From assembly GCA_028873975.1 (NCBI GenBank), contig JAPPMO010000049.1, positions 48,934 through 112,933 on the forward strand: a DNA stretch of 64,000 bases, written 5' to 3'. The notes beneath the pieces are model-generated. The model made no database searches. It was not told where the DNA came from and saw nothing but the letters and a program-made list of their open reading frames with translations. Origin of the DNA: Chloroflexota bacterium (GTDB lineage: Bacteria; Chloroflexota; Anaerolineae; Aggregatilineales; Phototrophicaceae). Shown here piece after piece: positions 8,073 through 57,542 of the stretch (the first letter of the stretch is position 1; every line of letters begins with the position of its first letter). A program made the position numbers and the translations under genes.

Positions 8073-8150
8073 AGGCTCGATTCTCGTCGGATGCGAGCGA
8101 GGCGATTTTATCGCGTATATGTTGGAAAAGCGAAAGTCATCCCATGATAC

Positions 8151-8578
8151 CCAGGGCATTTGCATCAAATTTTTTCGCCTCAGAGGCGCCGAGGACACCG
8201 AGAAAAGCAACAAAAATCAATGCTCTTGTCTTATCTCAGACATGCTTTTGAGCGACGTAGGTGGTTTCTTTGGCAACTTTGTAATATACAGGTGGCGGAT
8301 TTAGAGAATAAGTCGTCAAAACACCCTCAACCCTGTGACCTCAGTAGTTCCAAGTAAGTAATGAGAATAGCGAAAACGCCGCTTTTCTACCCCATCCCCG
8401 GCTTGTGCCCCCTCGGTCCCCCCGAATCATCAGGGAAGGGTGACTCGACGTTTTTATTTGGAATGTCCAGCAGAATTCGCACGATTAACTTGGTTCTACT
8501 TCTGTTTTCTCTATGATTAGATTATGGTTTGAATTCTTGACCATTCTGCGAATACCCGATGTAATGTTGATTGCCCTG
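8151..8578. repeat. MITE-like element, copy R2 (core type A1) with nested insertion
   Basis: The left end reads CAGGGCATTTGCATCAAA and the right end is ATTGCCCTG, the terminal inverted repeat of the family. The left arm carries GAGGCGCCGAGGACACCGAG. The A1 core (CAATGCTCTTGTCTTAT, then ACAGGTGGCGGATTTAGAG) matches copy R5 nearly base for base, and R4 in the opposite orientation. The 10 bases before the element (8142-8151, CCATGATACC) and after it (8579-8588, CCATGATTCC) agree at 9 of 10 positions, so they look like a target-site duplication. Element B1 interrupts the right part. Confidence 0.8.
8343..8500. repeat. Palindromic element B1, inserted in R2
   Basis: Comparison of R2 with R5 shows about 160 extra bases here. 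The ends are inverted repeats (AGTAGTTCCAAG against CTTGGTTCTACT, 10 of 12 paired). Inside are ATGAGAAT, TTCTACCCCATCCC, CTCGGTC and ATCAGGGA, in the same order as in element B2 at 50588-50733. Together the two define a second repeat family distinct from the CAGGG elements. Confidence 0.65.
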
Positions 8579-8590
8579 CCATGATTCCTG

Positions 8591-8619
8591 TTAAGCATGG
8601 ATTACAAATATGATATAAA
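8591..8619 (+). promoter_or_regulatory. Possible glgP promoter
   Basis: TATAAA (8614-8619) lies 17 bases after TTAAGC (8591-8596). The -10 is good and the -35 poor. It sits between the end of repeat R2 and the glgP start at 8716. The AGGAC at 8706-8710 is the likely ribosome binding site. Confidence 0.35.
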
Positions 8620-8715
8620 TAACGTAGCGGCGACAATAGATTAAGGGAAACGTGTTTTTGTCGGCGTTGCGGATTCCCGCAGTTCCTTATGAAGATAAAG
8701 AAAATAGGACAAATC

Positions 8716-11190
8716 ATGGTGATCGCGAATTTCGATAACATTACACCGGTTGAACTCACGCAAGAAGCCTTCGCGCAGGCTTTTGCCGACAACCTATATT
8801 ACACGCGCGGGCAAGCTATCTACACAGCCACGCGTCACGATCTGTATATGGCTTTGTCGCATACCGTGCGCGACTACATGATGTTCAACTGGCAAAAGAA
8901 TGTCGACGCCTACTTCCGGCAGAATCCCAAGTTCGTCTATTACCTGTCGGCGGAGTATCTGATTGGTCAGCAACTGGAGAAGAATCTGCTCTACACCGGC
9001 ACCTACGGTTTCGCCCGCGAAACCATGCGCCAGCATGACATTGATCTGGCGGACTTGAGCCGACTGGATATCGAGCCGGGCTTGGGCAACGGAGGCTTGG
9101 GACGACTATCGGCTTGTTTCATGGATTCGCTGGCGACGCTCAATATACCGGCTGTAGGCTACGGAATACGGTATGAATATGGCATCTTCCGGCAAAGCTT
9201 CCGCGATGGCTGGCAGGTCGAGAGCCCGGATGAATGGCTCCACTATGGCAACCCTTGGGAGTTCCCGCAGCCGGACGATATGGTTGAAGTAGGTTTTGGG
9301 GGCCATACCGAGAGCTACCACGACAGCGAAGGAAACTACTATGTACGCTGGATCCCGGCGCAGACCATCCTGGGGCAGCCGTATCATACCCTGGTGCCCG
9401 GTTACCGGACCAAGACCGTCAATATGCTGCGGCTCTGGGGCGCCCGCGCCACACGCGAATTTGACCTCCAGCTATTTGACGTCGGCGACTACACGCGCGC
9501 GGTGGAACAAAAGACCAGTTCTGAAAATGTTACAAAAGTGCTCTACCCCAACGACAATACGCCGCAAGGCAAAGAACTGCGACTCAAACAACAGTACTTC
9601 TTCGTTGCCTGTTCGCTGAACAACATCATCAAACGATTTATGATCAAAAATGTGGAGTGGGAGAAACTGCCTGAGGTGGCGGTCATCCATCTCAACGATT
9701 CGCATCCGGTGATCGCCATTGCCGAATTGATGCGGCTGCTGGTCGATCTCTATAAACTGCCATGGGAGCGCGCTTGGGATATCACGACCCGCACCTTTGC
9801 GGCTACACAACATACGCTCCTGCCCGAGGCGCTCGAAAAATGGCCCGTATGGCTCTTGGAGCGCGTTTTGCCGCGTCATCTGGAGGTCATCTACGAGATC
9901 AACCATCGCTTTCTCGACGAGGTACGCATGTCTTACCCCAACGATCCGGAGCGAGTGAGCCGCCTGTCCATCATTGAAGAGGGTCCGGAGAAGCAGGTGC
10001 GAATGGCAAACCTGGCTTGCGTCGGCAGCTATTCAATCAACGGCGTTGCCGAGCTGCAGTCTGATCTTTTGCGGACGAAAGTCTTCCCCGATTTTGCCGA
10101 AATGATGCCGGAAAAATTCGGCAACAAGACCAACGGCGTCACGCCGCGCCGCTTTATCCAGTTGGCGAATCCTATTTTGGCGGATCTCATCACGGAAAAA
10201 ATCGGCGCTGGCTGGCTGAGCGACCTGGATGAATTGCGCGGATTAGAAGCGTTTGTTGACGATCCAGCTTTTCGGCAAGCCTGGCGCGCGATGAAAACGG
10301 CGAATAAAGCGCAGTTGGCGGACTATATCGAAAGCGTCCTCGGCTTGAGCGTCAATACGGAGTCCATGTTTGACGTTATGGTCAAGCGTTTACACGAATA
10401 CAAGCGGCAGTTGTTGAAGACCTTGCATATCGTCCATCTCTATCAAAAGCTAAAGACCGATGGCGCGACGGCGCTGCATCCAGTTACCTTTGTCTTTGGC
10501 GCCAAGGCGGCGCCGGGCTACTACATGGCAAAGTTGATCATCAAACTGATCAACTCGGTAGCGGAAGTTGTCAACCGGGATCCAGTTTCCGCGGACGTTT
10601 TGCGGGTCGTCTTCGTGCCAAACTTCAACGTCACTGCGGGACAGCTTATCTACCCGGCGGCCGACATCTCCGAACAGATTTCGCTGGCGGGCAAAGAAGC
10701 TTCCGGCACGGGCAATATGAAGTTCGCGCTGAACGGCGCATTAACCATCGGCACGCTGGACGGAGCCAATATCGAGATCCGGGATCGCGTCGGCGCGGAG
10801 AACTTCTTCCTCTTTGGCTTAACTACGGAAGAGGCCTACGCGGCCAAAGAGGGCGGTTATCATCCCTGGCATTACTACGAAAGAAACGATGACCTGCGCA
10901 TGGCAATTGACTGGATCGCCAACGGGCAGTTTTCCGGCGGCGACACCCGGCTCTTCCGCCCAATTGTGGATTCTCTGCTGCATCACGATGAATACATGCT
11001 TTGCGCCGATTTCGCCAGTTACCTGGAATGCCAGCAGGCGGCGATGGAGGCATTTGCCGACCGCGAGCGCTGGACGACCATGTCGATTTTGAACGCGGCG
11101 CGTTCGGGCTTCTTCTCTTCGGACCGGACAATAGCCGAGTACAATCGCGATATCTGGCGGGCGTCAACGCTTAAGCTGGGCGAAGACTAA
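8716..11190 (+). CDS. glgP: Glycogen/maltodextrin phosphorylase (GT35, long classical type)
   Basis: Protein of 824 residues from ATG 8716, chosen over the in-frame ATG at 8689 because AGGAC lies five bases upstream. It releases glucose 1-phosphate from alpha-1,4-glucans. Family marks are [15 protein letters not shown] near residue 120, the [17 protein letters not shown] loop and the PLP-lysine region [19 protein letters not shown]. Length matches E. coli GlgP (about 815). A second, different phosphorylase is at 46957-49524, so this genome has two phosphorylase types. The glycogen synthesis genes are 41 kb away. Confidence 0.96.
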
Positions 11191-11213
11191 TCCCGGCGGC
11201 ATTGGAAGAACCG

Positions 11214-12263
11214 CTAGAGCGGCAAGGGCTGCGTTCGCAGGGCGATTCGCCGTCCCTGCGCGTTGGAGGCGATCGCCGCGGACATGATCTCCGTCACGTG
11301 GCGCGCCGCCCACAGATTCGCTAATTCGGGCTGGGTTCCCGATTCAATGCAACGCAGCCATTCCAGATGCTGGTTGGGTACCCCGGGCGCCGGCAAGGTC
11401 TCTATAATTGGCGCAGCCCACTCTCGATCAGCCGAGCCGGGGCGTATGTATTGGAGCGATTCACCGTCTTGCAGCAACTTTCCAGTTGTGCCATGCACGC
11501 GCAAGTAGGTCGATCTCGCCGGATCGCACCAACCGGTTTCCGCAGTCCCCAGGGCGCCGTTCTCGAAATCCAGGATGAGTGTGGCAGTGTCCTCCATGGC
11601 AGTTGGTTTGTTAACCGTCGTCATGCGCGCCGTCACCCCAGCGACTTTGCCCAGCAGGGCGACCAATGTCGCGATCGCGTAAACGCCCATGTCGATGAGG
11701 GCTCCGCCGCCCGCTGTATCGGCGTCGAAAAACCAGAAGTCGTCCGCGGCGCGCGGCTCTTCAAAAGTATCGGCCACTTCCGCGTAATAGACCTCGGGTC
11801 CGCCATGGCTGTGGCGCGCCAGCGCGCTTGAGACAAGCCCTATCGCGCCAGCGGCAATCTGCCGTCGTATCTCGTAGACGATCCCCCCAAAAGAGGGCCG
11901 ACAATAGACTATCCGCTCGGGCTGAGCCTCGCTGGCGGCGACGAGTTGATCAGCCTCTTCCATAGTTGTGCAGAGCGGCTTCTGCATGAAAAGGTGCAAA
12001 CCGCGCTCGAGGACTGCCAAACCCGCCTCGGCGTGCAGCGGATGCGGCAATGCCACGATGACCGCGTCCAAGTCCTCGTCCTTGAGCAGATCCTCCCAAT
12101 CGGTCGAATAGCGCGGAACCGCAAAGCGATCGCAGAGCAGCCGCAAGCGCTGTTGCCGGCGTCCGCAAATGTGCGTCACTCGCATGCCATCAATCGCGGC
12201 GATTTCCGGCAGGTGGCTTAGCGCGGCTATGCCCCCCGCGCCCAGGATACCGACCCTAATCAT
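11214..12263 (-). CDS. Gfo/Idh/MocA family oxidoreductase
   Basis: Protein of 349 residues. The N-terminal Rossmann domain shows GILGAGGIA (5-13), and the EKP-like motif reads MQKPLCTTMEEA, with the expected lysine. The C-terminal half contains the GGGALIDMGVYAI helix (about residues 185-197) that carries active-site residues in this family. The start overlaps the end of the upstream sugar isomerase gene by 8 bases (12256-12263), so the two are translationally coupled. This family with a TIM-barrel isomerase is a common pairing for inositol or rare-sugar catabolism; the specific substrate is not readable. Confidence 0.92.
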   Translation of the reverse strand: MIRVGILGAGGIAALSHLPEIAAIDGMRVTHICGRRQQRLRLLCDRFAVPRYSTDWEDLLKDEDLDAVIVALPHPLHAEAGLAVLERGLHLFMQKPLCTTMEEADQLVAASEAQPERIVYCRPSFGGIVYEIRRQIAAGAIGLVSSALARHSHGGPEVYYAEVADTFEEPRAADDFWFFDADTAGGGALIDMGVYAIATLVALLGKVAGVTARMTTVNKPTAMEDTATLILDFENGALGTAETGWCDPARSTYLRVHGTTGKLLQDGESLQYIRPGSADREWAAPIIETLPAPGVPNQHLEWLRCIESGTQPELANLWAARHVTEIMSAAIASNAQGRRIALRTQPLPL

Positions 12264-13089
12264 CGAGATAGCGCCTCAAGAACTGGTAGCTGCGGCCGAT
12301 GGAATCGACCATATCTTCGTTGCCGGTCTCGTCTTCAATTGCCAGGACGCCCTCATAACCGATCTCTCCAAGCGCCCCTATGTAACCGTCCCAGGGCACC
12401 AGCCCCTCGCCACAGGTCGCTTGCATCGTCTCGGGATTCCAGTCTTTGGCATGGGTGTGGATGATCTTGTCGCCCAGGATATGAACGCCTTGAACAGTTC
12501 CCGCCTCCGAACCGAAGCGCAATAGATTGCAGGGGTCATAATTCACGCGCAGCCAGGGATTGCCGATCTCGTCGATGAAGTCATTGAGCGCCTGTGGAGA
12601 TTCTTGCCCGGTCTCGAGCGCGAAGTATACGCCGACCTTGGCGCTATGTTCCGCGATCTCGCCGACCGAGCGCAGCAAGGTCTGATAGGCGGGATCGGAA
12701 CTGTCTTCGGGCAGCAAGCCCGCGTGCGTGGTAATGATATTACCCCCTAGCTCGGCCGTGGTGTCCAGGGCTTCCTTGGTCTTGTCGATCCGCCACTGCA
12801 AGCCCGCTTCTTCTTCCAAGCCGCCATAAGTCGCCGCGCCTTGCAACTGCGCGCAAAAGGCGCTGAATGACAGGCCGAGCGACTCGGCAATCTTGACGAT
12901 TTCGCGGCGGTCCGCCGCGCTGCCCACTTCAGGGTCCAAAATGCAGGGACGGTATTCCACATTGACGATCCAGGGCTGTACCGATGTACAGCCGATCTCG
13001 GCGGCGATCTCCATTTGCCGCGCCAGCGCGCCAACATCGGGCGTCGCGCCCAGGGTCCAAAGGGCGCATCCAATTGAAAAGCTGCTCAT
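12256..13089 (-). CDS. Sugar phosphate isomerase/epimerase (AP endonuclease 2-type TIM barrel)
   Basis: Protein of 277 residues starting at ATG 13089 behind AAGGTGAGAGG; the in-frame GTG at 13098 lies inside that ribosome binding site and is rejected. Xylose-isomerase-like barrel features include FALETGQES, NYDPCNLL (metal-binding D), the HTHAKDWNPE histidines and AIEDETGNED near the end, giving the expected Glu-Asp-His-Glu metal set. It is the first gene of a two-gene unit with the Gfo/Idh/MocA oxidoreductase. Probable isomerisation or epimerisation of a keto-sugar. Confidence 0.88.
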   Translation of the reverse strand: MSSFSIGCALWTLGATPDVGALARQMEIAAEIGCTSVQPWIVNVEYRPCILDPEVGSAADRREIVKIAESLGLSFSAFCAQLQGAATYGGLEEEAGLQWRIDKTKEALDTTAELGGNIITTHAGLLPEDSSDPAYQTLLRSVGEIAEHSAKVGVYFALETGQESPQALNDFIDEIGNPWLRVNYDPCNLLRFGSEAGTVQGVHILGDKIIHTHAKDWNPETMQATCGEGLVPWDGYIGALGEIGYEGVLAIEDETGNEDMVDSIGRSYQFLRRYLDD

Positions 13090-13177
13090 GCCTCTCACCT
13101 TTACCTTTATTGGGGATTCTGGTCACCTATGATAACAAAGCTCGCAAAGTCTGGCATTCTTGCGCGATTTGAACAGC

Positions 13178-14998
13178 CTATGAACTCAACAAGTACTTTG
13201 AGAACCACTGGACTATCGCGCTCACGCTTCTTATTCGATTCCGCTCCTTGCGGAAGCCGTGTCCCTCGTCCGGAAACAGAATATACTCAACGGGTACATT
13301 CCGCCTGCGCAATTCTTCCACCACTTGTTCCGCTTCGTGGACCGGCACGTTGCTATCGTTGGCGCCGTGCAGTACCAGCGTAGGCGCTCTAACGCGATCC
13401 AGCTTGTGAATCGGGGACAAGGCATCCAACAAATCAGCTTCCGTATCTGGATCGCCATATTCGATCTTGGAGATGCCCGCCATCCAGGGTTCCGTTCGTT
13501 CGAAAAACGTCTTGAAATTGACGACGCCATACAGATTCACGCCAGCGGCAAACAGCTCCGGAAAAGCCGCCAAGCCAGCCATGGTCATGTAACCGCCGTA
13601 AGAGCCGCCCATGATGCCCAGCTTGCCCGCTTCCGCGATGCCGGCGTCGAGCAAATAATGTACGGTCGACGCGATGTCTTGAATCGCGTCGAAGCGCAGC
13701 GCGCCATTATCCAGATTGACGAAACGCTTGCCAAATCCAGACGAGCCGCGCACATTCGGGGCGAAAACGGCGATACCCTTCGACAGCAAAGCCTGATAGT
13801 CATAGCGGAAGCGCGGCTGTTCCTGGCCTTCCGGTCCGCCATGAAAGCTGAAGACCGTGGGGAACGGCGCAGCAAGGTCGGGCGGCGTGTACAGCCATCC
13901 CGTCAATGGCAACCCGTCATGCGCCGAATATCGCAGCAGCCGCGCAGGGCCCAAGCGCTCAAGTTGAACTCCTATGCGAGGACTGCGCGTCAGTTGTCGC
14001 AGCGACAAGGTCGCGATGTCCAGCACCCAAATGTCTTGCGGCAGCCGCGAGCCGCTGAGGCACATTGCCAACTGGGAGCCGTCGGGCGCATAGCGCAAGT
14101 CCTCGACGATCTCGCCCGGCAATTCAGTATCGCTTAGCTTGTCCCCATTCGGCAAGTTGATCAGTTCCAGTTCATGCCGCCCGGCGATATTCCAAATGAC
14201 AGCCGCCGATTGGCCGCTGGGGCTGAGCGCGAATTCGACCAGCTCGGCGTCGTCACGCGCTTGCAGAACCCGCCATTGCGCGTCTTCGCCGAGGGACAGC
14301 CGACAGAGACATGCCAAGTCCTGATCGCGGTTGGAGATCAGATATACCTGGCGCTCGTCGGCGGAAAAGCGCGGGTTCTCGAAACTTGCGGGCGGGTCAT
14401 GAGGCGTCAGCATCCGTTCTTGGTTCTCAAGCAGGTCTAGCAGATGCACATTATTGTCGCCGCGATAGACGATACGCTTGAGGAGCGCGCGGTTACCGTC
14501 GGCGGTCAGGTCTTCAATGACGCCCGTACCAGCGTTCTTCGCCAGTTTTTCCGCCGCTCCACCCTCGACGCCAATGCGAAAACTATCCATCGAGTCACTC
14601 TGATCCATATTCGACGAAAAGAGAACAAAAGCGCCGTCTTTCGTCCAGACATTGAGCCAATTGTTGGTCGATCCGTCTTTTGTCAGCCGGCGGCGCTCGC
14701 CCCCGTTGGTCCGCACCAGGTCAATTTGCGCATTCATGCCGCCGCCAGGCGCCGATTCAACCGCCAACCAGTCCCCAGCCGGCGACCATAACACCTTGTT
14801 GACTTGTTCATCAAAAGCCGTTACTGCTTCGGGGAAGCCTCCTGACAGGGCAATGCGCCAACCCTGAGGACTGCCCGTCAAGTCACTGACAAAGGCTAAT
14901 TCCCGCCCATCCGGCGAGAAGCTCGGCGACCAGCACCTGCCCGCCTTCGCCAGCAACAGGGTAGATTCGTCGACCGCCCATTTGTTTTTGGCATTCAT
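13178..14998 (-). CDS. S9 family serine peptidase (prolyl oligopeptidase/acylaminoacyl peptidase type)
   Basis: Protein of 606 residues. The N-terminal 350 residues form a beta-propeller with TolB/PD40-like blades (SPSFSPDGRELAFVS, RFSADERQVYLIS). The C-terminal alpha/beta-hydrolase domain has the nucleophile S466 in GGSYGG, D548 (HGANDSNVP) and H580 (DEGHGF). There is no signal peptide, so it should act on imported peptides in the cytoplasm. The start overlaps the stop of the upstream membrane protein by 4 bases (14995-14998). It is the last gene of an operon that begins with a peptide-binding protein, a logical uptake-and-degrade arrangement. Confidence 0.95.
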   Translation of the reverse strand: MNAKNKWAVDESTLLLAKAGRCWSPSFSPDGRELAFVSDLTGSPQGWRIALSGGFPEAVTAFDEQVNKVLWSPAGDWLAVESAPGGGMNAQIDLVRTNGGERRRLTKDGSTNNWLNVWTKDGAFVLFSSNMDQSDSMDSFRIGVEGGAAEKLAKNAGTGVIEDLTADGNRALLKRIVYRGDNNVHLLDLLENQERMLTPHDPPASFENPRFSADERQVYLISNRDQDLACLCRLSLGEDAQWRVLQARDDAELVEFALSPSGQSAAVIWNIAGRHELELINLPNGDKLSDTELPGEIVEDLRYAPDGSQLAMCLSGSRLPQDIWVLDIATLSLRQLTRSPRIGVQLERLGPARLLRYSAHDGLPLTGWLYTPPDLAAPFPTVFSFHGGPEGQEQPRFRYDYQALLSKGIAVFAPNVRGSSGFGKRFVNLDNGALRFDAIQDIASTVHYLLDAGIAEAGKLGIMGGSYGGYMTMAGLAAFPELFAAGVNLYGVVNFKTFFERTEPWMAGISKIEYGDPDTEADLLDALSPIHKLDRVRAPTLVLHGANDSNVPVHEAEQVVEELRRRNVPVEYILFPDEGHGFRKERNRIRSVSAIVQWFSKYLLSS

Positions 14999-17235: not shown

Positions 17236-17244
17236 CGACGATGC

Positions 17245-18150: not shown

Positions 18151-18162
18151 GGAATGATTCGC

Positions 18163-20990: not shown

Positions 20991-21096
20991 GTTTCACCAC
21001 AAAGACACGAAGGGCACAAAGAAAACGACTATTTCGCAACCAATTCTCGGTGTCCTCGGTGGCCTCGGTGGTTAAAAATCTGGTGCGATTGCCCTG
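20991..21096. repeat. Dispersed element, copy R3 (left end missing)
   Basis: Left arm TTTCACCACAAAGACACGAAGGG and right arm CTCGGTGTCCTCGGTGGCCTC, then GGTGCGATTGCCCTG, the family right end. The left CAGGGCAATCGC terminus is absent, so this copy is truncated. The internal part is only about 45 bases and holds neither of the two cores. Confidence 0.65.
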
Positions 21097-32482: not shown

Positions 32483-32510
32483 AGCACATGCAAATAAGGT
32501 CGCCATGTTG

Positions 32511-32799
32511 CAGGGCAATTGCATCAAATTATTTTTCACCACCGAGGACGCCGAGAGCACCGAGTTTAGGGGCCTTTGTCCGCTTTCCCTCTAAATTCCG
32601 CCACCTGAATAAGGCGAGGTCGCCAGCGAAACTTCATTTGTAGCTGAAAAGCAAGCCTGAAACATAAGATGAGCTATGTTCCGTTGCTTTTCTCGGTGTT
32701 GACGGTCAGTGTCTACGCGACCCTCGGCGCCCTCGGTGGTTAATGATCAGTCCAATTTCGCACCATTTCAGTAGCCACCATTTTGATGCAATTACCCTG
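32511..32799. repeat. MITE-like element, copy R4 (core type A1, inverted)
   Basis: Ends CAGGGCAATTGCATCAAA and TTTTGATGCAATTACCCTG are inverted repeats. Arms ACCACCGAGGACGCCGAG and CTCGGCGCCCTCGGTGGTT. Inside, CTCTAAATTCCGCCACCTG and GTTGCTTTTCTCGGTG are the A1 core of R2 and R5 read in the opposite direction. The element is flanked by a perfect 9-base direct repeat GCCATGTTG (32502-32510 and 32800-32808), the clearest target-site duplication in the window. Confidence 0.85.
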
Positions 32800-32916
32800 G
32801 CCATGTTGAAAGGCGATTGCCATGCGAGGGGTGTAGCTTGCGCGCGGCATCCCAGGGACCCTCTCACCAGTCAAGCGCCGCGCGGCTGTGAAAACTAGGA
32901 CGACTTGCAAAAATGA

Positions 32917-33032: not shown

Positions 33033-33405
33033 CCAAACTCGACATGATAGGCTACAGGTCAAATCGGCGGAAGTCAAGGCTGGGTTGCTCGCAGAGCAAT
33101 CGCACCAGATTTTTTCTAACCACCGAGGGCGCCGAGGACACCGAGAAAAGCAAGTAAAATCAATGCTCTTGTCTTATTTCAGACATGCTTTTGAGCGACG
33201 GATGTGGTTTCCTTGGCAACTTGCAATATACAGGTGGCGGATTTAGAGGAATAGTCGCCAAAACTCCCTAAACTTGTACCCTCTTTGGTTAGATTACGGT
33301 TTGATTTCTTGACCATTCTGCGAATGCGCCATGTGATGCGATTGCTCTGTCTTTGGGGCTATTGCCAACTCGGTAGGCTTAAGCGTCGAGAGATCGGCGA
33401 TGAGG
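33033..33405. other. Intergenic region, 373 bp, mostly repeat R5
   Basis: Between tRNA-Glu and the YgiT-type gene, both on the minus strand. Repeat copy R5 fills 33092-33349. The remaining flanks show nothing recognisable. Confidence 0.65.
33092..33349. repeat. MITE-like element, copy R5 (core type A1)
   Basis: Ends CAGAGCAATCGCACCAGA and TGTGATGCGATTGCTCTG. Left arm AACCACCGAGGGCGCCGAGG and the ACACCGAGAAAAGCAA transition to the A1 core, nearly identical to R2 over about 130 bases. It lacks the B insertion seen in R2, so it shows the uninterrupted form. No convincing direct repeat flanks it. Confidence 0.8.
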
Positions 33406-44190: not shown

Positions 44191-44358
44191 GGCTCACCTC
44201 GGGGCGCTATCGTAAGAATGAGGAAGTAACAAGACAAAGAGCGATTCCTGGATTGCGTCAAGGCGAATCCACAACTTGAGTTGGCCATCGCGCATTCCCG
44301 ATTGTCGTATTCATTTTATCATATTCACTATCGCTGACCACTGAATCAGCCTAACTTT

Positions 44359-44614
44359 CAGAGCAATCGCATCAAATTTTTTTTCAACACAGAGAGCGCA
44401 GAGCGCACAGAGTGCGTTGGTATTCAGACGACATTTCTCCTAAAATCCGAGACTAAGAATAAAGAGTGATAAGCGAAACGTATTTTTTCACTCGAAAACA
44501 CAGTTGAAACAAGACATTCTATGTTTTTCTCTGTGCCTTCTGTGTTCTCTGTGGTTAATATTTGGTTTAGATTCCCAGCATTTCAGCCGCTATCATTTTG
44601 GTGCGATTGCCCTA
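44359..44614. repeat. MITE-like element, copy R6 (core type A2)
   Basis: Ends CAGAGCAATCGCATCAAA and GGTGCGATTGCCCTA. Arms AACACAGAGAGCGCAGAG and CTCTGTGCCTTCTGTGTTC, then GTGGTTAA. The inner core (TCAGACGACATTTCTCCTAA, then TCACTCGAAAACACAGTT) matches R7 in the opposite orientation. It is flanked by CCTAACTTT (44350-44358) and CCTAACCTT (44615-44623), 8 of 9 identical. Confidence 0.85.
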
Positions 44615-44624
44615 CCTAACCTTC

Positions 44625-44652
44625 CAGGGCAATCGCACCAAATTACTTTTTT
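44625..44652. repeat. Solo terminal repeat of the CAGGG element family
   Basis: CAGGGCAATCGCACCAAA followed by TTACTTTTTTTC, just after the R6 target-site duplicate. Only the left end is present, so it is probably a remnant of a second element. Confidence 0.55.
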
Positions 44653-46956: not shown

Positions 46957-49524
46957 TTATGCCCAAACGATTTTCTGCGGCATGAACAAACTATGCAAAT
47001 GGTCGTGGTATGGCAGTATTCTCACGGAAAAACCGACGTTGCCAGTCGTGTCATAGGTGTGTTCGGTAACGAAGGTGTATATGTTGTCGCCGTCTTCGGA
47101 TACGATCGCCATATCGACCGACTGTCCTTCTCGGATATTGCCGATGGTATCCAGCATACCGTAATAGAGTTGCACGCGAACGTCGCAAGGCTGCAAATCG
47201 CCAAGCCTGACAAGGGCGCGCACTTCCGCCTTGCTGCCAATTTCGACGTCCCCGCTGTCGATATCCACCTCCAATACCGCGACATCGGACCAGACCCGGT
47301 CGAGCTTTGCCTTCCAGTCCGCGAATTGAACCGCGTCCGCGAAGCCGCAAGCGCTCATGTCTTGACTGACGAGATAGCGAGGGATATAGAACTCTTCGGT
47401 GTATTGCTGCACCATGCGATGCGTGTTAAAGACCGGGGCCAGGCGCCGCATGCTGCGCTTGACACGACGAATCCAGTCGCGCGGCAGCCCGTCGCGCGAT
47501 TGCCGGTAAAACAGCGGCACGATGTCTTGCTCCAGCAGATTGTAAAGCGCCTGGCTCTCGATATAGTCTTGATCAGCCCAATCGTGATCGGCATACTCCT
47601 CGCCATGACCGATTGACCAGCCAATATCGCGTCGGTAAGCCTCGTCCCACCATCCGTCAAGTATGCTACAGTTCAGACCCGCATTGTAGATCACTTTCAT
47701 GCCGCTGGTGCCGCTGGCTTCTGTGGGTCGGCGAGGATTGTTCAGCCAGATGTCGACGCCCTGCACCATGTAGCGCGCCACATTCAGGTCGTAATTTTCC
47801 AGGAAAACAATCGAATCGCGAAAATCGGGATCCCGCGCGACGTTGACGATGGTGCGGATGAATTCTTTGCCTTCGTTATCATGCGGGTGCGCTTTGCCGG
47901 CGAAGATGAATTGCACGGGTCGCTCCGGATCGGTGAGCAATTTGCGCAGGCGTCCCAAGTCGCGGAAGACCAATGTCGCACGCTTGTAAGTGGCAAAGCG
48001 GCGCGCGAAGCCGATCGTCAGGGCATCCGGATTCAGCACCTCATCCGCTTCTTCAATCGCTGTTTGCGAGACGCCGCGCCGCTGCAATTGCTCCCGCAAG
48101 CGATCGCGCGCGAAAGCCACCAGCCTTTCGCGGCGACGCACATGCGTCCGCCACAGTTCCGCATCCGGTATGCTGGACACGCCTTCCCAGATCTCCGGTC
48201 GCGATTCTTCCGCGCGCCAGGCTGGATCCAGGTAACGATCGAAAAGCTGCGCCATCTCCTGGCTGACCCAAGTCTGTACGTGTACACCATTTGTGATGGC
48301 TCGAATTGGCACTTCGTGAACCGGCACATTTGGGTAAACCCACTTCCACATATCGCGCGAGACTTCGCCGTGCAACCGCGCGACGCCGTTCGAGCCCGAC
48401 GACAGGTTCAGCGCCATCACCGACATGGAGAACAACTCGTGGTCGCCCATGTTTTCGCGCCCTAAATCGAAGAACTGATCGCGACTTAGCTCCAACTGAT
48501 GCATCAAATCCGTGAAATGCTCATCGATCAAATCGAAATCGAAGCGCTCCAGGCCGGCCGGGACGGGCGTGTGTATGGTGAAGACGCTGCTTGCCGCAGT
48601 CAGCGCCTTTGCCTGTTCGAAACTCAGCTGATGGTCGCGCATATAGCTGCGGATGCGTTCCAGCAGCAAGAAGGCCGAATGACCTTCGTTCATGTGATAA
48701 ATGTCAGCCTCGATACCGAGAGCGCGCAAAGCGCGCACGCCGCCGATACCCATCAGAATCTCCTGCCGGATGCGCGTGCGGCGATCGCCGCCGTAGAGGC
48801 GGTCGGTCAGGTTCCGGTCTTCTTCAAGGGCATTCTTGTCGATATTGGTATCAAGCAGGTATAGCGAAACCCGCCCCACTTGCACCTTCCAGATTTGCGC
48901 CCACAATTCACGACCCGGCAAAGGCACGGAGATCTTGATCGTCCTGCCGTCCGGTCCTGTCTGCAATGTGACCGGCAAGTTGACGTAGTCGTTGATCGGA
49001 TAGGACTCCTGCTGCCAGCCGTCGGCATTGAGATACTGCTGGAAATACCCTTCCTGGTACAAAATGCCCAGGCCGACCAGCGGGATATCCAGGTCGCTGG
49101 CGCTCTTGAGATGATCGCCGCTCAAGACGCCCAAACCGCCCGAGTAATTCTGCAAGCATTCCGTCAATCCAAATTCCATAGAGAAATAGGCGATGACAGG
49201 CTGGTGGGGCAGATCGCCGTACTTGTTCGCGAACCAGGTATCTTGTGATCGCATGTATTCGTCGTAAGAGCGGCAAACGCGCGCGTAGTGCGCCATGAAC
49301 GACGTGTCATCAACCAGCGCGTTAAGCCTTTCTTGGCTCATCCGCCCCAGCATCCATTCCGGATTATGCTGCGTTTCTTCCCACAGCTCGGGGTCGAGCC
49401 GCCGAAACAAGGAAATCGCTTCGTGATCCCATGCCCAGCGCAGGTTGTAGGTTAATTCGTGCAGGCGCCCCAACTGCCGCGGCAATTTGGGGGCGACTTT
49501 GACTCGCGCTACAGGTTGTACCAT
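46957..49524 (-). CDS. glgP: Alpha-glucan phosphorylase (short-N-terminal, archaeal/bacterial type)
   Basis: Protein of 855 residues, ATG 49524 behind TTGGAGCG. Belongs to the second phosphorylase type (TIGR02094-like): an N-terminal domain of unknown function (ELTYNLRWAWDHEAISLF), YFSMEFGLTECLQNYSGGLGVLSGDH, and the PLP region EASGTSGMKVIYNAGLNCSILDGWW. It releases glucose 1-phosphate from glucans, complementing the classical enzyme at 8716. It is divergent from the CBM48 gene at 49839, and glgC and glgA are within 6 kb. Confidence 0.94.
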   Translation of the reverse strand: MVQPVARVKVAPKLPRQLGRLHELTYNLRWAWDHEAISLFRRLDPELWEETQHNPEWMLGRMSQERLNALVDDTSFMAHYARVCRSYDEYMRSQDTWFANKYGDLPHQPVIAYFSMEFGLTECLQNYSGGLGVLSGDHLKSASDLDIPLVGLGILYQEGYFQQYLNADGWQQESYPINDYVNLPVTLQTGPDGRTIKISVPLPGRELWAQIWKVQVGRVSLYLLDTNIDKNALEEDRNLTDRLYGGDRRTRIRQEILMGIGGVRALRALGIEADIYHMNEGHSAFLLLERIRSYMRDHQLSFEQAKALTAASSVFTIHTPVPAGLERFDFDLIDEHFTDLMHQLELSRDQFFDLGRENMGDHELFSMSVMALNLSSGSNGVARLHGEVSRDMWKWVYPNVPVHEVPIRAITNGVHVQTWVSQEMAQLFDRYLDPAWRAEESRPEIWEGVSSIPDAELWRTHVRRRERLVAFARDRLREQLQRRGVSQTAIEEADEVLNPDALTIGFARRFATYKRATLVFRDLGRLRKLLTDPERPVQFIFAGKAHPHDNEGKEFIRTIVNVARDPDFRDSIVFLENYDLNVARYMVQGVDIWLNNPRRPTEASGTSGMKVIYNAGLNCSILDGWWDEAYRRDIGWSIGHGEEYADHDWADQDYIESQALYNLLEQDIVPLFYRQSRDGLPRDWIRRVKRSMRRLAPVFNTHRMVQQYTEEFYIPRYLVSQDMSACGFADAVQFADWKAKLDRVWSDVAVLEVDIDSGDVEIGSKAEVRALVRLGDLQPCDVRVQLYYGMLDTIGNIREGQSVDMAIVSEDGDNIYTFVTEHTYDTTGNVGFSVRILPYHDHLHSLFMPQKIVWA

Positions 49525-49838
49525 TGCTTCGCTCCAATTTTGTCGACGAATGAGTCAAGCGTCGGAAGCGTCCATTCTACCGTCAATCCATGACGATTAA
49601 AGCTCGAAAATGGAGTCGATAGCCATGTCCTGAAATTTTTCCTATTAGCTCTCGGCAAGCCGGCGCCGACCGCCTTGTTGTCGCATTTTGCGCGTATAGC
49701 CTTAGCAATTCCGCACAAAGAGATTGCTAATATTCTGTTATGGCGCTCCATATTACTTTAATGAGATGTTTCAGTATGATATGATGAAAATGTCGCCAGG
49801 CCGCATTGTGACCATCGCGCATCAATTGGAGAGCTTAG
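49525..49838. other. Divergent intergenic region, 314 bp
   Basis: Separates the second glucan phosphorylase (minus) from the CBM48 pair (plus). A weak plus-strand promoter, TTACTT (49753-49758) with TATGAT (49775-49780) at 16-base spacing, lies upstream of the first CBM48 gene. GGAGAG before 49839 is its ribosome binding site. Nothing else recognised. Confidence 0.45.
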
Positions 49839-50135: not shown

Positions 50136-50140
50136 GCCTT

Positions 50141-51358: not shown

Positions 51359-51452
51359 GTTGTACCTTTCTCACTGCGTTGAGATGAACAAAGTGCTTGC
51401 TAGCGAGCAAGTATACCGAATAGAGAGGCATTGCGCAACTTGATGCTCTTCC

Positions 51453-52232: not shown

Positions 52233-52276
52233 GTCTTCGCACCTTTCATTTGTCATAGCAAAAATACATCAAAGCG

Positions 52277-53548
52277 CTAGTTTCGCCGCGACCGAATCCG
52301 GAAGTCCACTTCGGCGCCGGGCGGCACTGTCATATCATCGAAACGCGAAAAACTGGCATGCGTGCAGTCGGCGCCAACGACTGATCCCGCGCCAATGGTG
52401 AACTGCGGCGGGATGCGCGCGTTTTTGCCGATACTGGTTATCTTCAAATCGCCAATATCCTGCCAGGATCCGACTTTTGCCGCCTTGCCGATGACGGCGA
52501 TCTTGTCAATCAGCGCGCGTTCAATCACCGCACCGGTCTCGACATAGGCATCGTTCAGAACGACGGACTCCCGCAGGACCGCCCCCGGGCCGATAAACAC
52601 GCCCGGTGACAAAATGGAACGCTCGATGACCGCGCCCGCGCCGATCACCGAGCCGTCCGTGATCATGCTGTCGACGATCTGCGTGTCGGGACCGATGCGC
52701 ACCGGCGGACGTTCTTCGCTGCGGGTATGGATCACCCAGGTGCGATCGTTCAGATTCAGCGACGGCGGGCTTGACAGCAGGTCCATGTGCGCTTCCCAAT
52801 AGGCGTCGACCGTACCGACATCAATCCAGTATCCGCCGTAAGGATACGCGAAAACATTCATGTCCGCCGCGACCATTTTGGGCAATATGTCGTGTCCAAA
52901 ATCGTGGGACGAGGCGGGATCTTCCTGGTCCTCCTGCAGCGCGCGCTCCAAAACGCCGTATTCAAAAACATACACCCCCATATTGGCCAAATTGCCGGGC
53001 GGCTGGCTTGGTTTCTCAATAAACTCCGTGACCTTGTACTCTGCGTCGGTATCAACAATGCCAAATCGGCTCGCTTCGTCCAAAGGCACGCGAATGGTGC
53101 AAACGGTCGCGTCAGCGCCTTTATCACGATGATATTGCACCAGCATGTCATAATCCATTTCGTAAATGTGATCCCCGGACAAGATCAACACGTATTCGGG
53201 GCGACCTTGTCGCACAAAATTGAGGTTCTGCGCGACTGCGTCCGCGGTGCCGGCATACCAATCCGTGTCATAGCTGCCTTGATAAGGCTGCAGCAAACGC
53301 ACCCCGCCAGTGAAAGACCGATCCAGATCCCAGGGCCGCCCTTTGCCAATGTGGTCGTTGAGACTGTGCGGGCGATATTGCGTCAACACCAGCACATCAA
53401 AGACGTTGGAATTAACGCAGTTGCTCAGCGCGAAGTCGATGATGCGATACTTGCCGCCAAAGGGAACAGCCGGCTTGGCTCGCTTGATAGTCAATACACC
53501 CAGTCTCGTGCCCTTGCCGCCCGCAAGTATGATTGCTTTTATCTTCAC
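52277..53548 (-). CDS. glgC: Glucose-1-phosphate adenylyltransferase (ADP-glucose pyrophosphorylase)
   Basis: Protein of 423 residues. Nucleotide-binding [24 protein letters not shown], then the [14 protein letters not shown] motif, the [10 protein letters not shown] segment and a left-handed beta helix at the end ([20 protein letters not shown]). It makes ADP-glucose for glycogen. The start overlaps the glgA stop by 4 bases (53545-53548), so glgA-glgC is one unit. Confidence 0.97.
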
Positions 53549-55020
53549 GACTCGCTCCTCCGCGCCTGTAACCTGCTTCGCGCCAGTTTATAAAGCGCGA
53601 TATATTCGCCGCCGCTTTTTTCCCAGCTGAAATCCATCGACATGCCGCGCTTCTGCATACGACGCCAAGCCGCCGGGTTTTGGTAATAGACATCAAGCGC
53701 CCAATCCAGCGTGCCCCGCAGCGCCGAAACCTCTTGCCAATGGAAGACGAAGCCCGTACCTGTTTCCGCATCTCCATTATCGTAGTTTTCGACTGTATCG
53801 GCCAAACCGCCAGTTTCGCGCACCAACGGCAACGCGCCATATCGCATCGCCATCATTTGCCCCATGCCGCATGGTTCAAAGTGGCTAGGCATCAAGAATA
53901 AGTCGCAGCCGGCATAAATCTGATGCGCTAAAGCGCTGTCAAACTGCAGAAAGGCCGTGGCTTGGTCCGGGAAGTCTTGATCCAATTGCCAAAACGCGTA
54001 TTCCAGTTCGCTTTCCCCCGCGCCCAGTACGACCAATTGCGCGTCGCGCTCTCCAAGCAACTGACGCAGCGCTGGCAGAGCCATGTCAAAGCCCTTCTGC
54101 GCCGCCAGCCGGCTGACAATGCCAATGAGCGGCAGATCGGGCGCTACCGGCAATCTGGCAAATGACTGCAAATGCCCTTTATTGGGCGGGCGCTTCCCTG
54201 CAAAATCGCCGCTGTCGAAATTCTGGAACAAGCAGGGATCAGTGGCCGGGTTCCAAACCTCCGTGTCCAGTCCATTCAAGATCCCGCGCAAATCGGCGCC
54301 CCGTTTGCCGATCAGCGGGGCTAATTCGTAGCCGGCATAGGGATATTTGATTTCCTCGGCATAGCGCGGACTGACCGTCGATATCATTTCACTATATGCG
54401 ATGCCTATCCCCAACAAATTGTCCGTCAAATCAAAAGACGCCAAGTCGGTCTGCTCGCGACCGTCGATGCCCGCCTGAAACAAGAAGCCCCCGGCGTGAT
54501 TGCCTTGGTAAGCGATGTTGTGAATCGAGAGCACTGCCGCCACCGATGCCCATTCCGAGACGTCGCTGTTCGAGTGAACAAGAAAGGGCAGCAAGCTCGT
54601 GTGCCAGTCATTAACATGAAGCAATTCCGGGAACCAGTTGATTTCTTCCTTCAGCCGCCAAACCGCCGCCATCAAGGCTTGGTTGAGATAGATGAAGCGC
54701 TCCATGTCCCAATTCCACTGGGAATAAATTTCGCCTTCAAGTCCAAAATAGGGTGGCGACTGCAAAAGATAATAGGGCGTGCCGTCGTACAAGCAACTAT
54801 ACACCCTGACCTCGTTTGTCCCAAGGCGATGCGGGAAGTCGAACGAGGTCAGCGGTTCAATTGCGTATTCGACATGATTGATGAAACCATAGCCCGGGAT
54901 TATGACGCGCGCGTCTATCCCCAGCTTGCGCAGCGCGACCGGCAAGGAGCCAAGTACATCGGCAAGCCCGCCAACCTTGGCAAACGGGACCGCCTCCGCG
55001 CTTGTGAGCAAGACCTTCAT
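53545..55020 (-). CDS. glgA: Glycogen synthase (ADP-glucose, GT5)
   Basis: Protein of 491 residues. N-terminal [19 protein letters not shown] (ADP-glucose binding), [12 protein letters not shown], then the C-terminal GT-B half with [12 protein letters not shown] and the E-x7-E-type [28 protein letters not shown]. Elongates glycogen. First gene of the glgA-glgC pair, with the phosphorylase and CBM48 proteins nearby. Confidence 0.97.
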
Positions 55021-55407
55021 TCCTGGAACCGACTTTCGCTACCAGTTCCCGCCACGGCGATTGTAACTGAACATCCCCGTCATGAGTACAATAACTTGCG
55101 TCGCCTCGTTGCCAGCCTCAATGCCCTGTGCTAGTATCATATGGGTACACTACAGCCGCTCGGCGGCAGCGAATTTGGGCTACCGCGCTCACACAAAATA
55201 ATAAACTTTCTCGGCTACCGCAGATCGCGGTTCATTAAATAAGTGAACGACATCGTTCCATTGCGGACGTCAACAATTGTCCTTCTCTAATTTGACAAGC
55301 CCTTATTCGCGCGAGGAGAAGGCTTATCTTTTTTTGTGTGAGCGCGACATTCTTGCGGACGATTCGCCGCCGATTGGCTACCCCGATTTATCGGGTTGGA
55401 ATTGCTC
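55021..55407. other. Divergent intergenic region, 387 bp
   Basis: Separates glgA (minus) from the LysM/LTD gene (plus). It contains a palindrome GTTCA-TTAAATAAG-TGAAC at 55230-55248, a possible operator. No gene or repeat element is recognised in the rest. Confidence 0.5.
55230..55248. promoter_or_regulatory. Possible operator palindrome between glgA and LysM gene
   Basis: GTTCA and TGAAC flank an AT-rich 9-base spacer. The symmetry and location in a divergent region are compatible with a regulator site. No second copy was noticed. Confidence 0.35.
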
Positions 55408-56346
55408 ATGATTCAGAAGCAACGTAGCAAACGACGGTTCAACTATCTGCCGCCGATCATTTTCCTCGCATTAACATTCGCAACCGCGGTCAGCGGCACT
55501 TACATCGCTTTGAGGCTCTTTGGCGACAATGCGGGGGCCGAAACCGTTCCCGAGATCATCACAGTTGAGATCATCATCACAGCGACTCCCGCGCCAGCCC
55601 AGGCAGCAACTGCCCAGCCCGCTGCAAGCAGCGCCGATCAAGTGGACCTGCCAGCGGATATTGCCGGCGCTGGATCCGGATCCGTTGCCACGGTGGACGC
55701 CGCGCGGCTCGGCGCAGTGGACGCCGCCATCAGCACGCCGACGGTTGAAGCCGGCGGCGAATTCTTGTCGGACAACTGTAAGTTTTACACCGTTCAGGGC
55801 GGGGATACGCCCTTCGGCATTGCCGAGCGCTGGGGCGCCAACCCCTATCTCCTGCTCGAAGTAAATAATCTCACGCTCGAGACCGCCACCAGTTTGCAGA
55901 TTGGGGACAGACTGATTGTCCCGCTTCCAGGCTGCAATGTCGAAGGACAAATCATCGACGCTGGCGGCGCGACATCCGCCGCCAATAGCGCGGCGGCCGC
56001 AAATGCAACGAGCGCCCCTGCCCAGGTCCTGATAGAAATCGCATCGGTGGAGGGAATCGGCGATATTACGGCGGAGGGCATACGACTGCGCAACACCGGC
56101 GGAGAGATCAATATCAGCGGCTGGACCTTGAATGATGCCGACGGCAATACCTATACTTTCCCCGGGTTGCTTCTATTCGCGGACGCGGTGATAGCGATCT
56201 ATACACGCAGCGGCGCCAGTACCGAAGGCGCTCTGTTTTGGGGCAGCGACCAGGCAGTTTGGCAAGCGGGAGAGCAACTCACGCTCGCCGACCGCGATGG
56301 CCAGGTACGCAAGACCTTGCAGATCCCAACTGATGCGTCCAACTAA
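55408..56346 (+). CDS. Membrane-anchored LysM and lamin-tail-domain (LTD) protein
   Basis: About 312 residues from ATG 55408; the TTG at 55396 is also in frame but the ATG fits GGTTGGA spacing. One membrane helix (about 15-37), an Ala/Pro/Thr-rich spacer, a LysM domain (127-173: FYTVQGGDTPFGIAERWGA, LQIGDRLIVPLPGC) and an LTD domain (about 210-310: GIRLRNTGGEINISGWTL, FWGSDQAVWQ). LysM binds peptidoglycan; the LTD role in bacteria is unknown. An outer-surface structural or enzyme-anchoring protein is likely. Confidence 0.85.
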   Translation: MIQKQRSKRRFNYLPPIIFLALTFATAVSGTYIALRLFGDNAGAETVPEIITVEIIITATPAPAQAATAQPAASSADQVDLPADIAGAGSGSVATVDAARLGAVDAAISTPTVEAGGEFLSDNCKFYTVQGGDTPFGIAERWGANPYLLLEVNNLTLETATSLQIGDRLIVPLPGCNVEGQIIDAGGATSAANSAAAANATSAPAQVLIEIASVEGIGDITAEGIRLRNTGGEINISGWTLNDADGNTYTFPGLLLFADAVIAIYTRSGASTEGALFWGSDQAVWQAGEQLTLADRDGQVRKTLQIPTDASN

Positions 56347-56395
56347 TCATTAGCCTGGCATTGTGTTTTAACAGTAATCGTCCGGGGGAGCGCGC

Positions 56396-56887
56396 ATGCA
56401 AAAATGGGAAAAGATTGTCGATCACTTGCTTCAAGAGGCCATCGGCAACGGTGATATCTCCCATTTGCCGGGCGCGGGCAAGCCGCTGCGCCTCGACAAT
56501 AACAGCCATACACCCCCCGAGTTGCGCGCGGCGCACAAGATCCTGGACGACCACAATGTGATTCCCGATTGGATCGCAGATCGCGAAGCGCTTGATCAAA
56601 CAGAGAGCAAACTATGGCGACGGTTGCTGCATAAAGCCGCGCGTTACCAAGCGGACAGGCGCGCTGCGATAAAGGCGGAACGAGCCAAGCTGGAAACAAA
56701 AATTGAAGGGGACTGGAAACGCTTCAAAAGCGGATTCTTGGAAGCGACGGACCGCTACAATCGCGCCCTGCTGGAACATAATCTAACGTTGCCGCAGGGT
56801 ATCGCGCACAAGCCCCAACTCCGTGGCGAGGAAATGATAGAGCGCGCTTTGCAGGCAAATGCCGGCAAAGCGGACAATACGAATTAA
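56396..56887 (+). CDS. DUF1992 (DnaJ-related conserved domain) protein
   Basis: 163 residues, ATG 56396 behind GGGGGAG. The N-terminal half is the DUF1992 domain: IVDHLLQEAIGNGDISHLPGAGKPL, then AHKILDDHNVIPDWI. This domain is found in the DnaJ-C28 family, but there is no J domain here. The C-terminal half is a charged helix (RRAAIKAERAKLE). Function unknown. It overlaps the 3' end of tatA by 4 bases tail-to-tail. Confidence 0.9.
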   Translation: MQKWEKIVDHLLQEAIGNGDISHLPGAGKPLRLDNNSHTPPELRAAHKILDDHNVIPDWIADREALDQTESKLWRRLLHKAARYQADRRAAIKAERAKLETKIEGDWKRFKSGFLEATDRYNRALLEHNLTLPQGIAHKPQLRGEEMIERALQANAGKADNTN

Positions 56888-57078
56888 GCGTTCTCTTCAA
56901 TCGGATTGCTTGGATTGTTATCTTCTGGTTTCGCCTTGGCGCCTTCCTGCAATCCCTTGCGGAAGTTGGCCACGGCCGAGCCGAGTTCGCCGCCGATGCG
57001 CGAAACGCGGCCGACGCCGAATAGAAGCACAACAATGATCAAGACGATGAAAAGTTCAGTTGGGCCCAAATTTGGCAT
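56884..57078 (-). CDS. tatA: Sec-independent translocase subunit TatA/E
   Basis: 64 residues, ATG 57078 behind AGGAAAAG. One membrane helix followed by the amphipathic helix FGVGRVSRIGGELGSAVANF, KGLQEGAK, and an acidic tail. The TatA family normally has an F-G motif at the end of the helix, present here (LLFGVGR). It supplies the pore component for twin-arginine export; the sugar-binding protein at 28950 carries such a signal. tatC is not in the window. Confidence 0.92.
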   Translation of the reverse strand: MPNLGPTELFIVLIIVVLLFGVGRVSRIGGELGSAVANFRKGLQEGAKAKPEDNNPSNPIEENA

Positions 57079-57483
57079 GGTCTTTTCCTATTCCACGATT
57101 TCGATCTCACGACAAGTATAACACGCTTCGCCTAGATTGCGACACGGCATCTATTTTGGTCACGGCAATCGCATCAAATTTTTTTCACCACAGAGGCACT
57201 GAAGTAAAACCAATAAAGTAATGCAACGAAAGCGAGCCTTGTAGGGGCGACCAATCTGGTCGCCCGTTGCCGCCGCGACTTGTGGTTTCGGGCGACATGG
57301 TATGTCGCCCCTACAGATCGTTGCTTTTGCAAAATTTGCATGACTTACTTGCACTTACTGAGGGCACAGAGAAAAACATAAAAAGTCTTATTTTAACTGT
57401 GTTTTCGAGTGAAAAATCACGGTTCGCTTATAACTCTTTCTTATGCTTAGTCTCGGATTTTAGAAGAAATGTCGTCTGAACAC
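57079..57483. other. Intergenic region, 405 bp, mostly repeat R7
   Basis: Gap between tatA and the histidine kinase, both minus. Repeat R7 (57161-57542) fills nearly all of it and runs 59 bases into the kinase gene. Element C (57241-57314) sits inside R7. Confidence 0.7.
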
Positions 57484-57542
57484 CTACGAACTCTGTGCGC
57501 TCTGCGCGCTCTGTGTTGAAAAAATTTGATGCAATTGCCCTG
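57161..57542. repeat. MITE-like element, copy R7 (core type A2, inverted) with nested element C
   Basis: Ends CACGGCAATCGCATCAAA and ATTTGATGCAATTGCCCTG. The right part, read on the minus strand, gives ACACAGAGCGCGCAGAGCG, TCAGACGACATTTCTTCTAA and TCACTCGAAAACACAGTT, nearly identical to R6. The left part is interrupted by element C. Its right end overlaps the 3' end of the kinase gene (stop at 57484). No convincing direct repeat flanks it. Confidence 0.85.
57241..57314. repeat. Palindromic element C, inserted in R7
   Basis: GTAGGGGCGAC and GTCGCCCCTAC are a perfect inverted pair at the two ends. Two inner stems (CGACCAATCTGGTCG and GCGACATGGTATGTCGC) follow. The flanks (ATGCAACGAAAG left, CGTTGCTTTTGCAA right) are also partly inverted, so the insert may extend further. 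Similar GTAGGGGCGAC palindromes are, as I recall, common dispersed repeats in Chloroflexota and cyanobacteria. Confidence 0.65.

Follow-up and report, generated by a model that had tools for sequence, protein, structure and literature searches.

The 64,000-nucleotide stretch of a Chloroflexota genome analysed here (the window; contig JAPPMO010000049.1, positions 48,934 to 112,933) contains short intergenic elements with inverted CAGGG ends and, inside these, inverted arms made of iterated 7-mers such as CACAGAG and CACCGAG. We consider it likely that two systems are layered in them: a shell, which is a miniature inverted-repeat transposable element (MITE) of the ISAs1 family, and arms that would be the recognition repeats of a small nuclease unit, the GxxExxY gene (TIGR04256 / PF13366). 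Arms of the same kind frame GxxExxY genes in the host, in its genus and in loci from 18 named phyla. The MITE family taken alone is well documented, yet an ordinary addition. The arms matter more, as a common repeat that is readable as small spurious proteins and is tied to one small, little-studied nuclease family, which has a conserved active site and loci in those 18 phyla. Repeat and protein each gain a testable partner.

Arms framing GxxExxY genes

With TIGR04256, three GxxExxY genes were found in the host assembly (G000, 4.46 Mb in 119 contigs), each framed by inverted arms. They score far above the family cut-off, the protein at locus L063 with 147.6 bits against 35. A GxxExxY match is present in 31 of the 34 genomes of the genus, and 31 of the 32 genus loci have an arm, whereas no CAGGG end lies within 350 bp of any of these 32. 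For a wider survey the genome_contigs collection was scanned with one host protein and the best 80 of 295 relatives were kept. An inward arm, defined as at least two units within 160 bp of the gene, accompanies 74 of the 80 loci, and 56 have both arms (left arm in 67, right arm in 63), while random intervals of the same loci have both arms in 2 of 2,471 cases and either arm in 101. Phylum names, mostly those of metagenome bins, are attached to 74 of the 80 records; 18 phyla are named, one of them archaeal, and armed loci occur in all 18. The six loci without an arm are L205, L227, L231, L241, L247 and L266, of which L227, L231 and L241 are on long branches.

The arms have a common layout, with an outer end that is mostly T-T-[AT]-[GA]-C, then the CACAGAG units and then A-rich sequence; 229 of 293 units are exactly CACAGAG, and beyond position -6 there is A/T richness only. 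The two arms of a cassette are matched to each other. In the 56 two-armed cassettes unit spacing is equal on both sides in 82 of 83 spacers (68% after shuffling, and none of 1,000 shuffles was as good), and unit type is equal in 50 of 56 (shuffled mean 40, maximum 45). Arm type is also linked to clade: on the protein tree arm period changes 8 times and unit type 17 times, and the minima of 200 shuffles were 19 and 28. Among the non-genus rows alone unit type does not track the tree (12 changes against a minimum of 11), because most of these rows are CACAGAG. The tree is built on 124 columns and has many unresolved forks, and shared descent of gene and arm explains the match as well as co-evolution does.

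The protein belongs to PF13366, and in all 57 aligned sequences D77, E87-x-K89 and Q101-x3-Y105 are invariant, which we take to correspond to the PD-(D/E)XK and QxxxY pattern of RecB-like nucleases. An AlphaFold2 model has a mean pLDDT (predicted local distance difference test) of 91 and a pTM (predicted template modelling score) of 0.83, and its best solved matches in Foldseek are SSO0001, presumably a Cas4 protein, and lambda exonuclease (E 1.5e-3 to 1.2e-2, TM, i.e. template modelling score, 0.44-0.52). Weak Cas4 profile matches agree with this fold, and PADLOC gave weak matches to Cas4, Cas4b and AbiEii. A sequence search of the PDB was uninformative, the best match having E 0.005 and most being designed repeat proteins.

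The state of a cassette site varies between close relatives. Cassettes occupy the junction between two genes that we take from their sequence to be menF and menD in many of the 34 genus genomes. The junction is empty in G029 and has remnants in G005 and G023. The cassette that the host and G021 have there is armed with CACAAAG units, and in G008, G020, G016 and G032 a CACCGAG-armed cassette stands next to a CACAAAG-type arm that was left over. Such a remaining arm lies to the left in L165 and L166 and to the right in G022 (L187), which suggests that cassettes were inserted into older arms or exchanged through them. The three-unit arms of the nine CACCGAG cassettes at this site are 93% (left, 6) and 90% (right, 7) identical, values that are raised by selection of the arms by motif, and the adjacent 20-nt stretches are 29-37% and the third codon positions 48% identical (16 of 36 pairs). 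Even with the identity overstated, the arms persist beside sequence that is not conserved. At the L063 site G021 and G008 have the cassette, as the host does, G016 has a short remnant of an arm and G032 has arms with other content; G009, G011 and G006 have no cassette and one CACAGAG by the downstream start codon, and in G020 the site is split between contigs. In the relatives without the L063 cassette (L278, L279, L280) this lone CACAGAG stands shortly before the next start codon, CACAGAGGAAAA..ATG, and is either what remains of an arm or a ribosome-binding region that matches by chance. Gain, loss and replacement are indistinguishable at both sites in these data.

Flanking repeats of GxxExxY genes were not found described in the open-licence papers searched. 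The arm 15-mer CACAGAGACACAGAG does not occur in these papers, and for shorter arm motifs none of the matches listed was, by title, evidently related. The arms and the nuclease are apparently a second, undescribed repeat-and-nuclease partnership.

The CAGGG-ended shell

The 18-bp end CAGGGCAATCGCATCAAA has 12 matches with at most three mismatches in the window, where 0.06 are expected, and 466 in the host assembly against 0 for a reversed-pattern control, in line with the original prediction of a family sharing inverted CAGGG ends. With at most two mismatches the end is present in every one of the 34 genus genomes and in 54 of the 61 searched altogether. Pairing ends by proximity, each used once, within fetched stretches of the host's own genome gave 48 elements of 110-480 bp (median 267), too small for a transposase gene. 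Target duplications of 9-10 bp are perfect in 25, have one mismatch in 6, two in 4 and three or more in 13, i.e. at most one mismatch in 31 of 48, and shuffled flanks gave about 1% perfect duplications, as predicted from self-pairing. Most of these stretches were picked by similarity or exact ends, and intact copies are therefore over-represented; 264 kb picked otherwise (the window and 200 kb of contig C3) gave 12 pairs, 5 with perfect duplications and 7 with at most one mismatch, the duplication itself having served as a criterion when choosing the partner end. The predicted duplications of R4 (9/9), R6 (8/9) and R2 (9/10) were all reproduced, and the long hairpins that had been predicted for the arms are formed by R4 and R6 (RNA folding z = -6.2 and -6.0). 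An Rfam scan of the window found tRNA only. The predicted list of seven members stands in part: R1 belongs to another MITE family, R3 is truncated with only its right end, and the rest carry CAGGG ends.

4694 to 4940, plus strand: R1, second-family MITE with ends GGGCGCATTTCA...TTACACCC, an internal CAGGG-like end at 4725-4742, plus arms (by eye)
4685 to 4693, no strand: R1 left target duplication AGAAACTAT, right copy at 4941-4949 AGAAACTGT, 8/9 (by eye)
4788 to 4811, plus strand: R1 left arm, CACAGAG units (motif scan)
4895 to 4910, minus strand: R1 right arm, CACCGAG units (motif scan)
8152 to 8578, plus strand: R2, MITE with CAGGG ends, 86-94% like R5 in stretches of its interior, apparent nested repeat at about 8332-8508
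8142 to 8151, no strand: R2 left duplication CCATGATACC, right copy at 8579-8588 CCATGATTCC, 9/10
8187 to 8202, plus strand: R2 left arm, CCGAG type (motif scan)
20994 to 21096, minus strand: R3, truncated CAGGG MITE keeping only its right end (left limit approximate); arms of CACAAAG type on the left and CACCGAG type on the right
32511 to 32799, plus strand: R4, complete CAGGG MITE of 289 bp, inverted CCGAG arms, site empty in 4/8 relatives
32502 to 32510, no strand: R4 left target duplication GCCATGTTG, right copy at 32800-32808, 9/9
32540 to 32564, plus strand: R4 left arm, three units (motif scan)
32723 to 32738, minus strand: R4 right arm (motif scan)
33092 to 33349, plus strand: R5, CAGGG MITE of 258 bp, duplication not recognisable
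33121 to 33145, plus strand: R5 left arm (motif scan)
44359 to 44614, plus strand: R6, CAGGG MITE of 256 bp, CACAGAG arms
44350 to 44358, no strand: R6 left duplication CCTAACTTT, right copy at 44615-44623 CCTAACCTT, 8/9
44388 to 44412, plus strand: R6 left arm (motif scan)
44529 to 44553, minus strand: R6 right arm (motif scan)
44625 to 44642, plus strand: solo CAGGG end, fragment
57161 to 57542, plus strand: R7, CAGGG MITE of 382 bp without duplication, a nested repeat at about 57200-57360 apparently interrupting the left arm
57491 to 57515, minus strand: R7 right arm, CACAGAG type (motif scan)

The flanks of R5 and R7 have no recognisable target duplication, and no left CAGGG end of R3 was found. 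R1 was ruled out as a CAGGG MITE, as it has a single CAGGG-like motif (4725) inside an element with GGGCGCATTTCA-type ends. R2 and R7 appear to contain further nested repeats.

Target duplications of the ISAs1 family are in the range of 8-10 bp, and a mobiliser of this type, proposed from the ends and the duplications, is supported by a complete insertion sequence (IS) of 1,245 bp in another genome of the genus (L122 in G030). Both its 18-bp ends are identical to the MITE consensus, it is flanked by a perfect 10-bp duplication, AATCTGTGCC, and its 399-aa transposase scores 410 bits on NF033564 (cut-off 70) and also matches PF13808 and PF01609. In G039, from another family of the same order, three 1.21-kb elements with perfect 9-10 bp duplications have one end identical to the MITE end and the other differing at two bases; one copy, L068, has a 319-aa open reading frame (ORF) with 368 bits on NF033564, from profile position 32. 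Matches to NF033564 were found in 8 of the 34 genus genomes, 7 of them above the cut-off. A transposase gene with the same ends thus exists in G030, but the profile search of the host assembly gave no match, so mobilisation there would be past or due to an unassembled copy. In the host contigs C4, C15, C22, C39, C77, C78, C96, C105, C109 and C113 a CAGGG end lies no more than about 370 bases from the contig start; the repeats probably broke the assembly at these points, and an autonomous IS could be hidden in the gaps.

Empty sites in relatives were found for R4, in four of eight genomes examined (G016, G032, G020 and G008), where a single ...CATGTTG copy of the target continues directly into the downstream sequence; in the other four (G006, G021, G009 and G011) the alignment ends before the site. 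As far as sequence can tell, we regard it as settled that the CAGGG elements are non-autonomous ISAs1-family MITEs, with a transposase presumed to be active in trans.

Arms are found in other shells as well. A second MITE family, to which R1 belongs, has GGGTGCATTTCA termini and a single CAGGG-like end inside. Four full copies are present in the fetched stretches of the host genome, three with perfect duplications of 8, 9 and 10 bp and one without. Copies of this family are located on contig C3 of G000 at L110:17642-17909, L111:7864-8140 and L113:9702-10067. By eye, a third repeat can be seen at 57200-57360 and 8332-8508 of the window and at L113:9775-9960, roughly AGTAANNCCAAGTAAGTAATGCAA ... 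TTGCATGACTTACTTG..., often with TGTAGGGGCGA...TCGCCCCTACA palindromes. It seems to be nested in or beside CACAGAG arms, as if it targeted them. In G018 (L313, L314, L315) some arms are, again by eye, enclosed by a recurrent shell in which CTGCGCAG is followed further out by AGGACGTG...ACATCGCCGATATTGTCC, and this shell may be a third MITE-like carrier of arms. Apart from these repeats, the window encodes two glycogen/alpha-glucan phosphorylases that belong to different subfamilies (TIGR02093 and TIGR02094), at 8689-11190 and 46957-49524.

Two layered systems and the alternatives

A motif scan of the 264 kb found 29 three-unit arms, against 0 in one shuffle, and period-9 arm matches are present in 32 of the 34 genus genomes. 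The strings TEDTE and HREH, which the original prediction had noticed in widespread hypothetical ORFs and attributed to the MITEs, are by direct reading the translation of 9-nt arm repeats. The attribution does not hold, as the arms are missing from five ISAs1 ISs, yet flank GxxExxY genes across phyla. Very probably the arms belong as a module to the GxxExxY unit and have been taken up by MITEs. This suggests that the recognition repeats of one system can travel on a transposon to which that system is unrelated.

We propose that an ISAs1 transposase would recognise the 18-bp ends in trans, insert the element and leave the 9-10 bp duplication. The arms would be the recognition repeats of the small GxxExxY gene framed by the same inverted arms, and its predicted PD-(D/E)XK nuclease, RecB/Cas4-like, would bind and cut the iterated 7-mers or their hairpin, as DNA or as RNA. 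Repair might then copy arm-bearing DNA into other arm-bearing sites and in this way spread both cassettes and hairpins. Two or more MITE shells, whose ends are unrelated, would have acquired arms and now carry them along. The conservation and co-inheritance of the arms are explained most economically if the nuclease reads them. The boldest step is by analogy, that the nuclease might spread arms as the REP-associated tyrosine transposase (RAYT) is thought, according to PMC2817692, to spread repetitive extragenic palindromes (REPs).

Several observations weigh against this proposal, and three of them bear on the spreading step. Across the 34 genomes the counts of period-9 arms and GxxExxY matches are not correlated (rho 0.09; 0.06 without the host), the matches including fragments and period-8 arms lying outside the count, and G031, with its 21 arm matches, has none to GxxExxY. 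Direct repeats of at least 5 bp are found around 14 of 57 two-armed cassettes against about 9.5 after shuffling, no clear excess. The arms of the three host cassettes (CACAAAG with period 8, CGCAGAG with period 9 and CACAGAG with period 8) do not exactly match the host MITE arms, which are mostly period-9 CACAGAG/CACCGAG. Cassettes between parallel genes are co-directional with their neighbours in 58 of 62 cases (ordinary triples 41 of 51), and insertion of inverted-repeat DNA alone would not predict this. Arm and end counts are weakly correlated over the 34 genomes (rho 0.39, p 0.02; without the host 0.33, p 0.06), where the arm pattern covers period 9 only, omits period-8 arms and counts four-unit arms twice. 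A wrong-orientation control gave an arm in 26 and both arms in 6 of the 80 loci, and a single query protein is behind all 80. The 57-row alignment omits 24 of the 80 loci, and the divergent L227, L231 and L241 are three of those missing from it; the Foldseek matches are weak, with none at E <= 0.001 and the best having a root-mean-square deviation of about 12-16 A. The overstated identity of the menF-menD arms belongs here too, and so do the spacer letters, which agree between arms in 40% against 33% shuffled, a value reached by 93 of 1,000 shuffles and not significant. With unit sequence and spacing kept and the letters between them free, the arms fit a protein that reads spaced 7-mers or a hairpin with symmetric internal loops; pairing along the full length of the arms is not favoured.

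The simplest alternative is a single system, in which arms and ends would both be parts of the ISAs1 MITE, the arms being its internal hairpin and arms elsewhere decayed copies. The MITEs themselves speak for it, with an arm in 46 of the 48 elements, on both sides in 36, and with 78 of 82 arms starting 26-31 or 60-61 nt from the element end, and so does the weak positive correlation of arm and end counts. We nevertheless find it very improbable. No arms were found in the five ISAs1 ISs examined (L122, L094, L095, L115 and L116), but they occur in the second terminal inverted repeat (TIR) family and as bare hairpins (L310, L320), and we rejected the arms as a part of the IS on these grounds; the genus GxxExxY loci are armed with no CAGGG end nearby, and armed loci are spread over 18 phyla. 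The CAGGG MITEs of G057, from another taxonomic family, have other unit types (two of four pass the motif, and the other two show related units by eye). Counts of arm matches and ends differ in both directions, with 100 against 7 in G018, 165 against 47 in G003, 13 against 271 in G009 and 7 against 151 in G027.

The main rival is a role in RNA, in which the arms would fold the GxxExxY message, or a transcript bearing the MITE, into a hairpin that is cut out or insulated; GxxExxY would act on that RNA, much as in 23S rRNA intervening sequences, and no DNA mobility would be driven by the nuclease. That the right arm begins 1-15 nt past the stop codon in all 14 genus loci parsed by script (of 32) fits such a role, as do the co-direction of the cassettes, the equal spacer lengths, which keep the helix in register, and the lack of clear target duplications around cassettes. 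Full pairing would, however, favour covariation of the spacer letters, which is not seen, and the best fold matches, though weak, are mostly DNA nucleases. We hold this explanation to be rather improbable. Somewhat less probable still, and in our opinion unlikely, are regulatory or terminator-like arms bound by another protein, with GxxExxY as an ordinary chromosomal gene regulated through them. The rarity of the family on plasmids (8 of 72,556 records) and its absence from the 50,697 phage records searched would agree with this, and so would the recurrence of cassettes at menF-menD. An ordinary gene is hard to reconcile with 100-260 arm matches against 2-3 GxxExxY matches in G000, G003 and G018, with empty, remnant and different cassettes at one site, and with 31 phylum changes over the 74 labelled rows, on a tree that 124 columns resolve poorly.

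The layered reading can be carried further, and we do so tentatively: GxxExxY and CACAGAG-type arms may possibly form a pan-bacterial selfish system, similar to RAYT and its REPs and built on a minimal Cas4/RecB-like nuclease. Such a nuclease would read 7-mer arms of clade-specific period, cut there and, through repair, spread cassettes as well as bare hairpins; the arms would have been absorbed by unrelated transposon shells, the ISAs1 MITEs among them. If true, it would be a source of the spurious TEDTE/HREH ORFs.

Relation to known systems

The shell is close to what is known of ISAs1 ISs and their MITEs: the elements have CAGGG ends and duplications of 9-10 bp, an IS within the genus shares their 18-bp ends exactly, and its transposase is of the NF033564 / PF13808+PF01609 type. 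The MITEs differ from the five ISs examined in carrying inverted CACAGAG-type arms, and the host assembly differs in having given no transposase match. The host cassette genes are by their scores plain members of the GxxExxY family, and what is different is the flanking repeats, of which no description was found in the open-licence papers searched.

In 23S rRNA intervening sequences small ORFs are located inside a large inverted repeat, and this is how the cassettes are built. No rRNA gene was noticed at the three loci that were read, however, and the protein is a different one. TIGR02436, a four-helix bundle that we take to be the intervening-sequence protein family, was considered as a second cargo of the arms and is found in just 1 of the 34 genus genomes.

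The nearest parallel is RAYT and its REPs, including REPINs (REP doublets forming hairpins) and bacterial interspersed mosaic elements (BIMEs). The enzyme here is a PF13366 PD-(D/E)XK protein and not an HUH (Y1) tyrosine transposase of the IS200/IS605 type, the repeat is an iterated 7-mer, armed loci occur in 18 named phyla, and we infer the mobilisation of the nuclease unit as well as its function. What the two have in common is the plan, in which two inverted repeats with scattered copies in the genome frame a gene that is low in copy number and codes for an enzyme of a DNA-cutting type; the enzyme gene stands between inverted copies of a dispersed repeat, here with both arms at 56 and at least one at 74 of the 80 loci.

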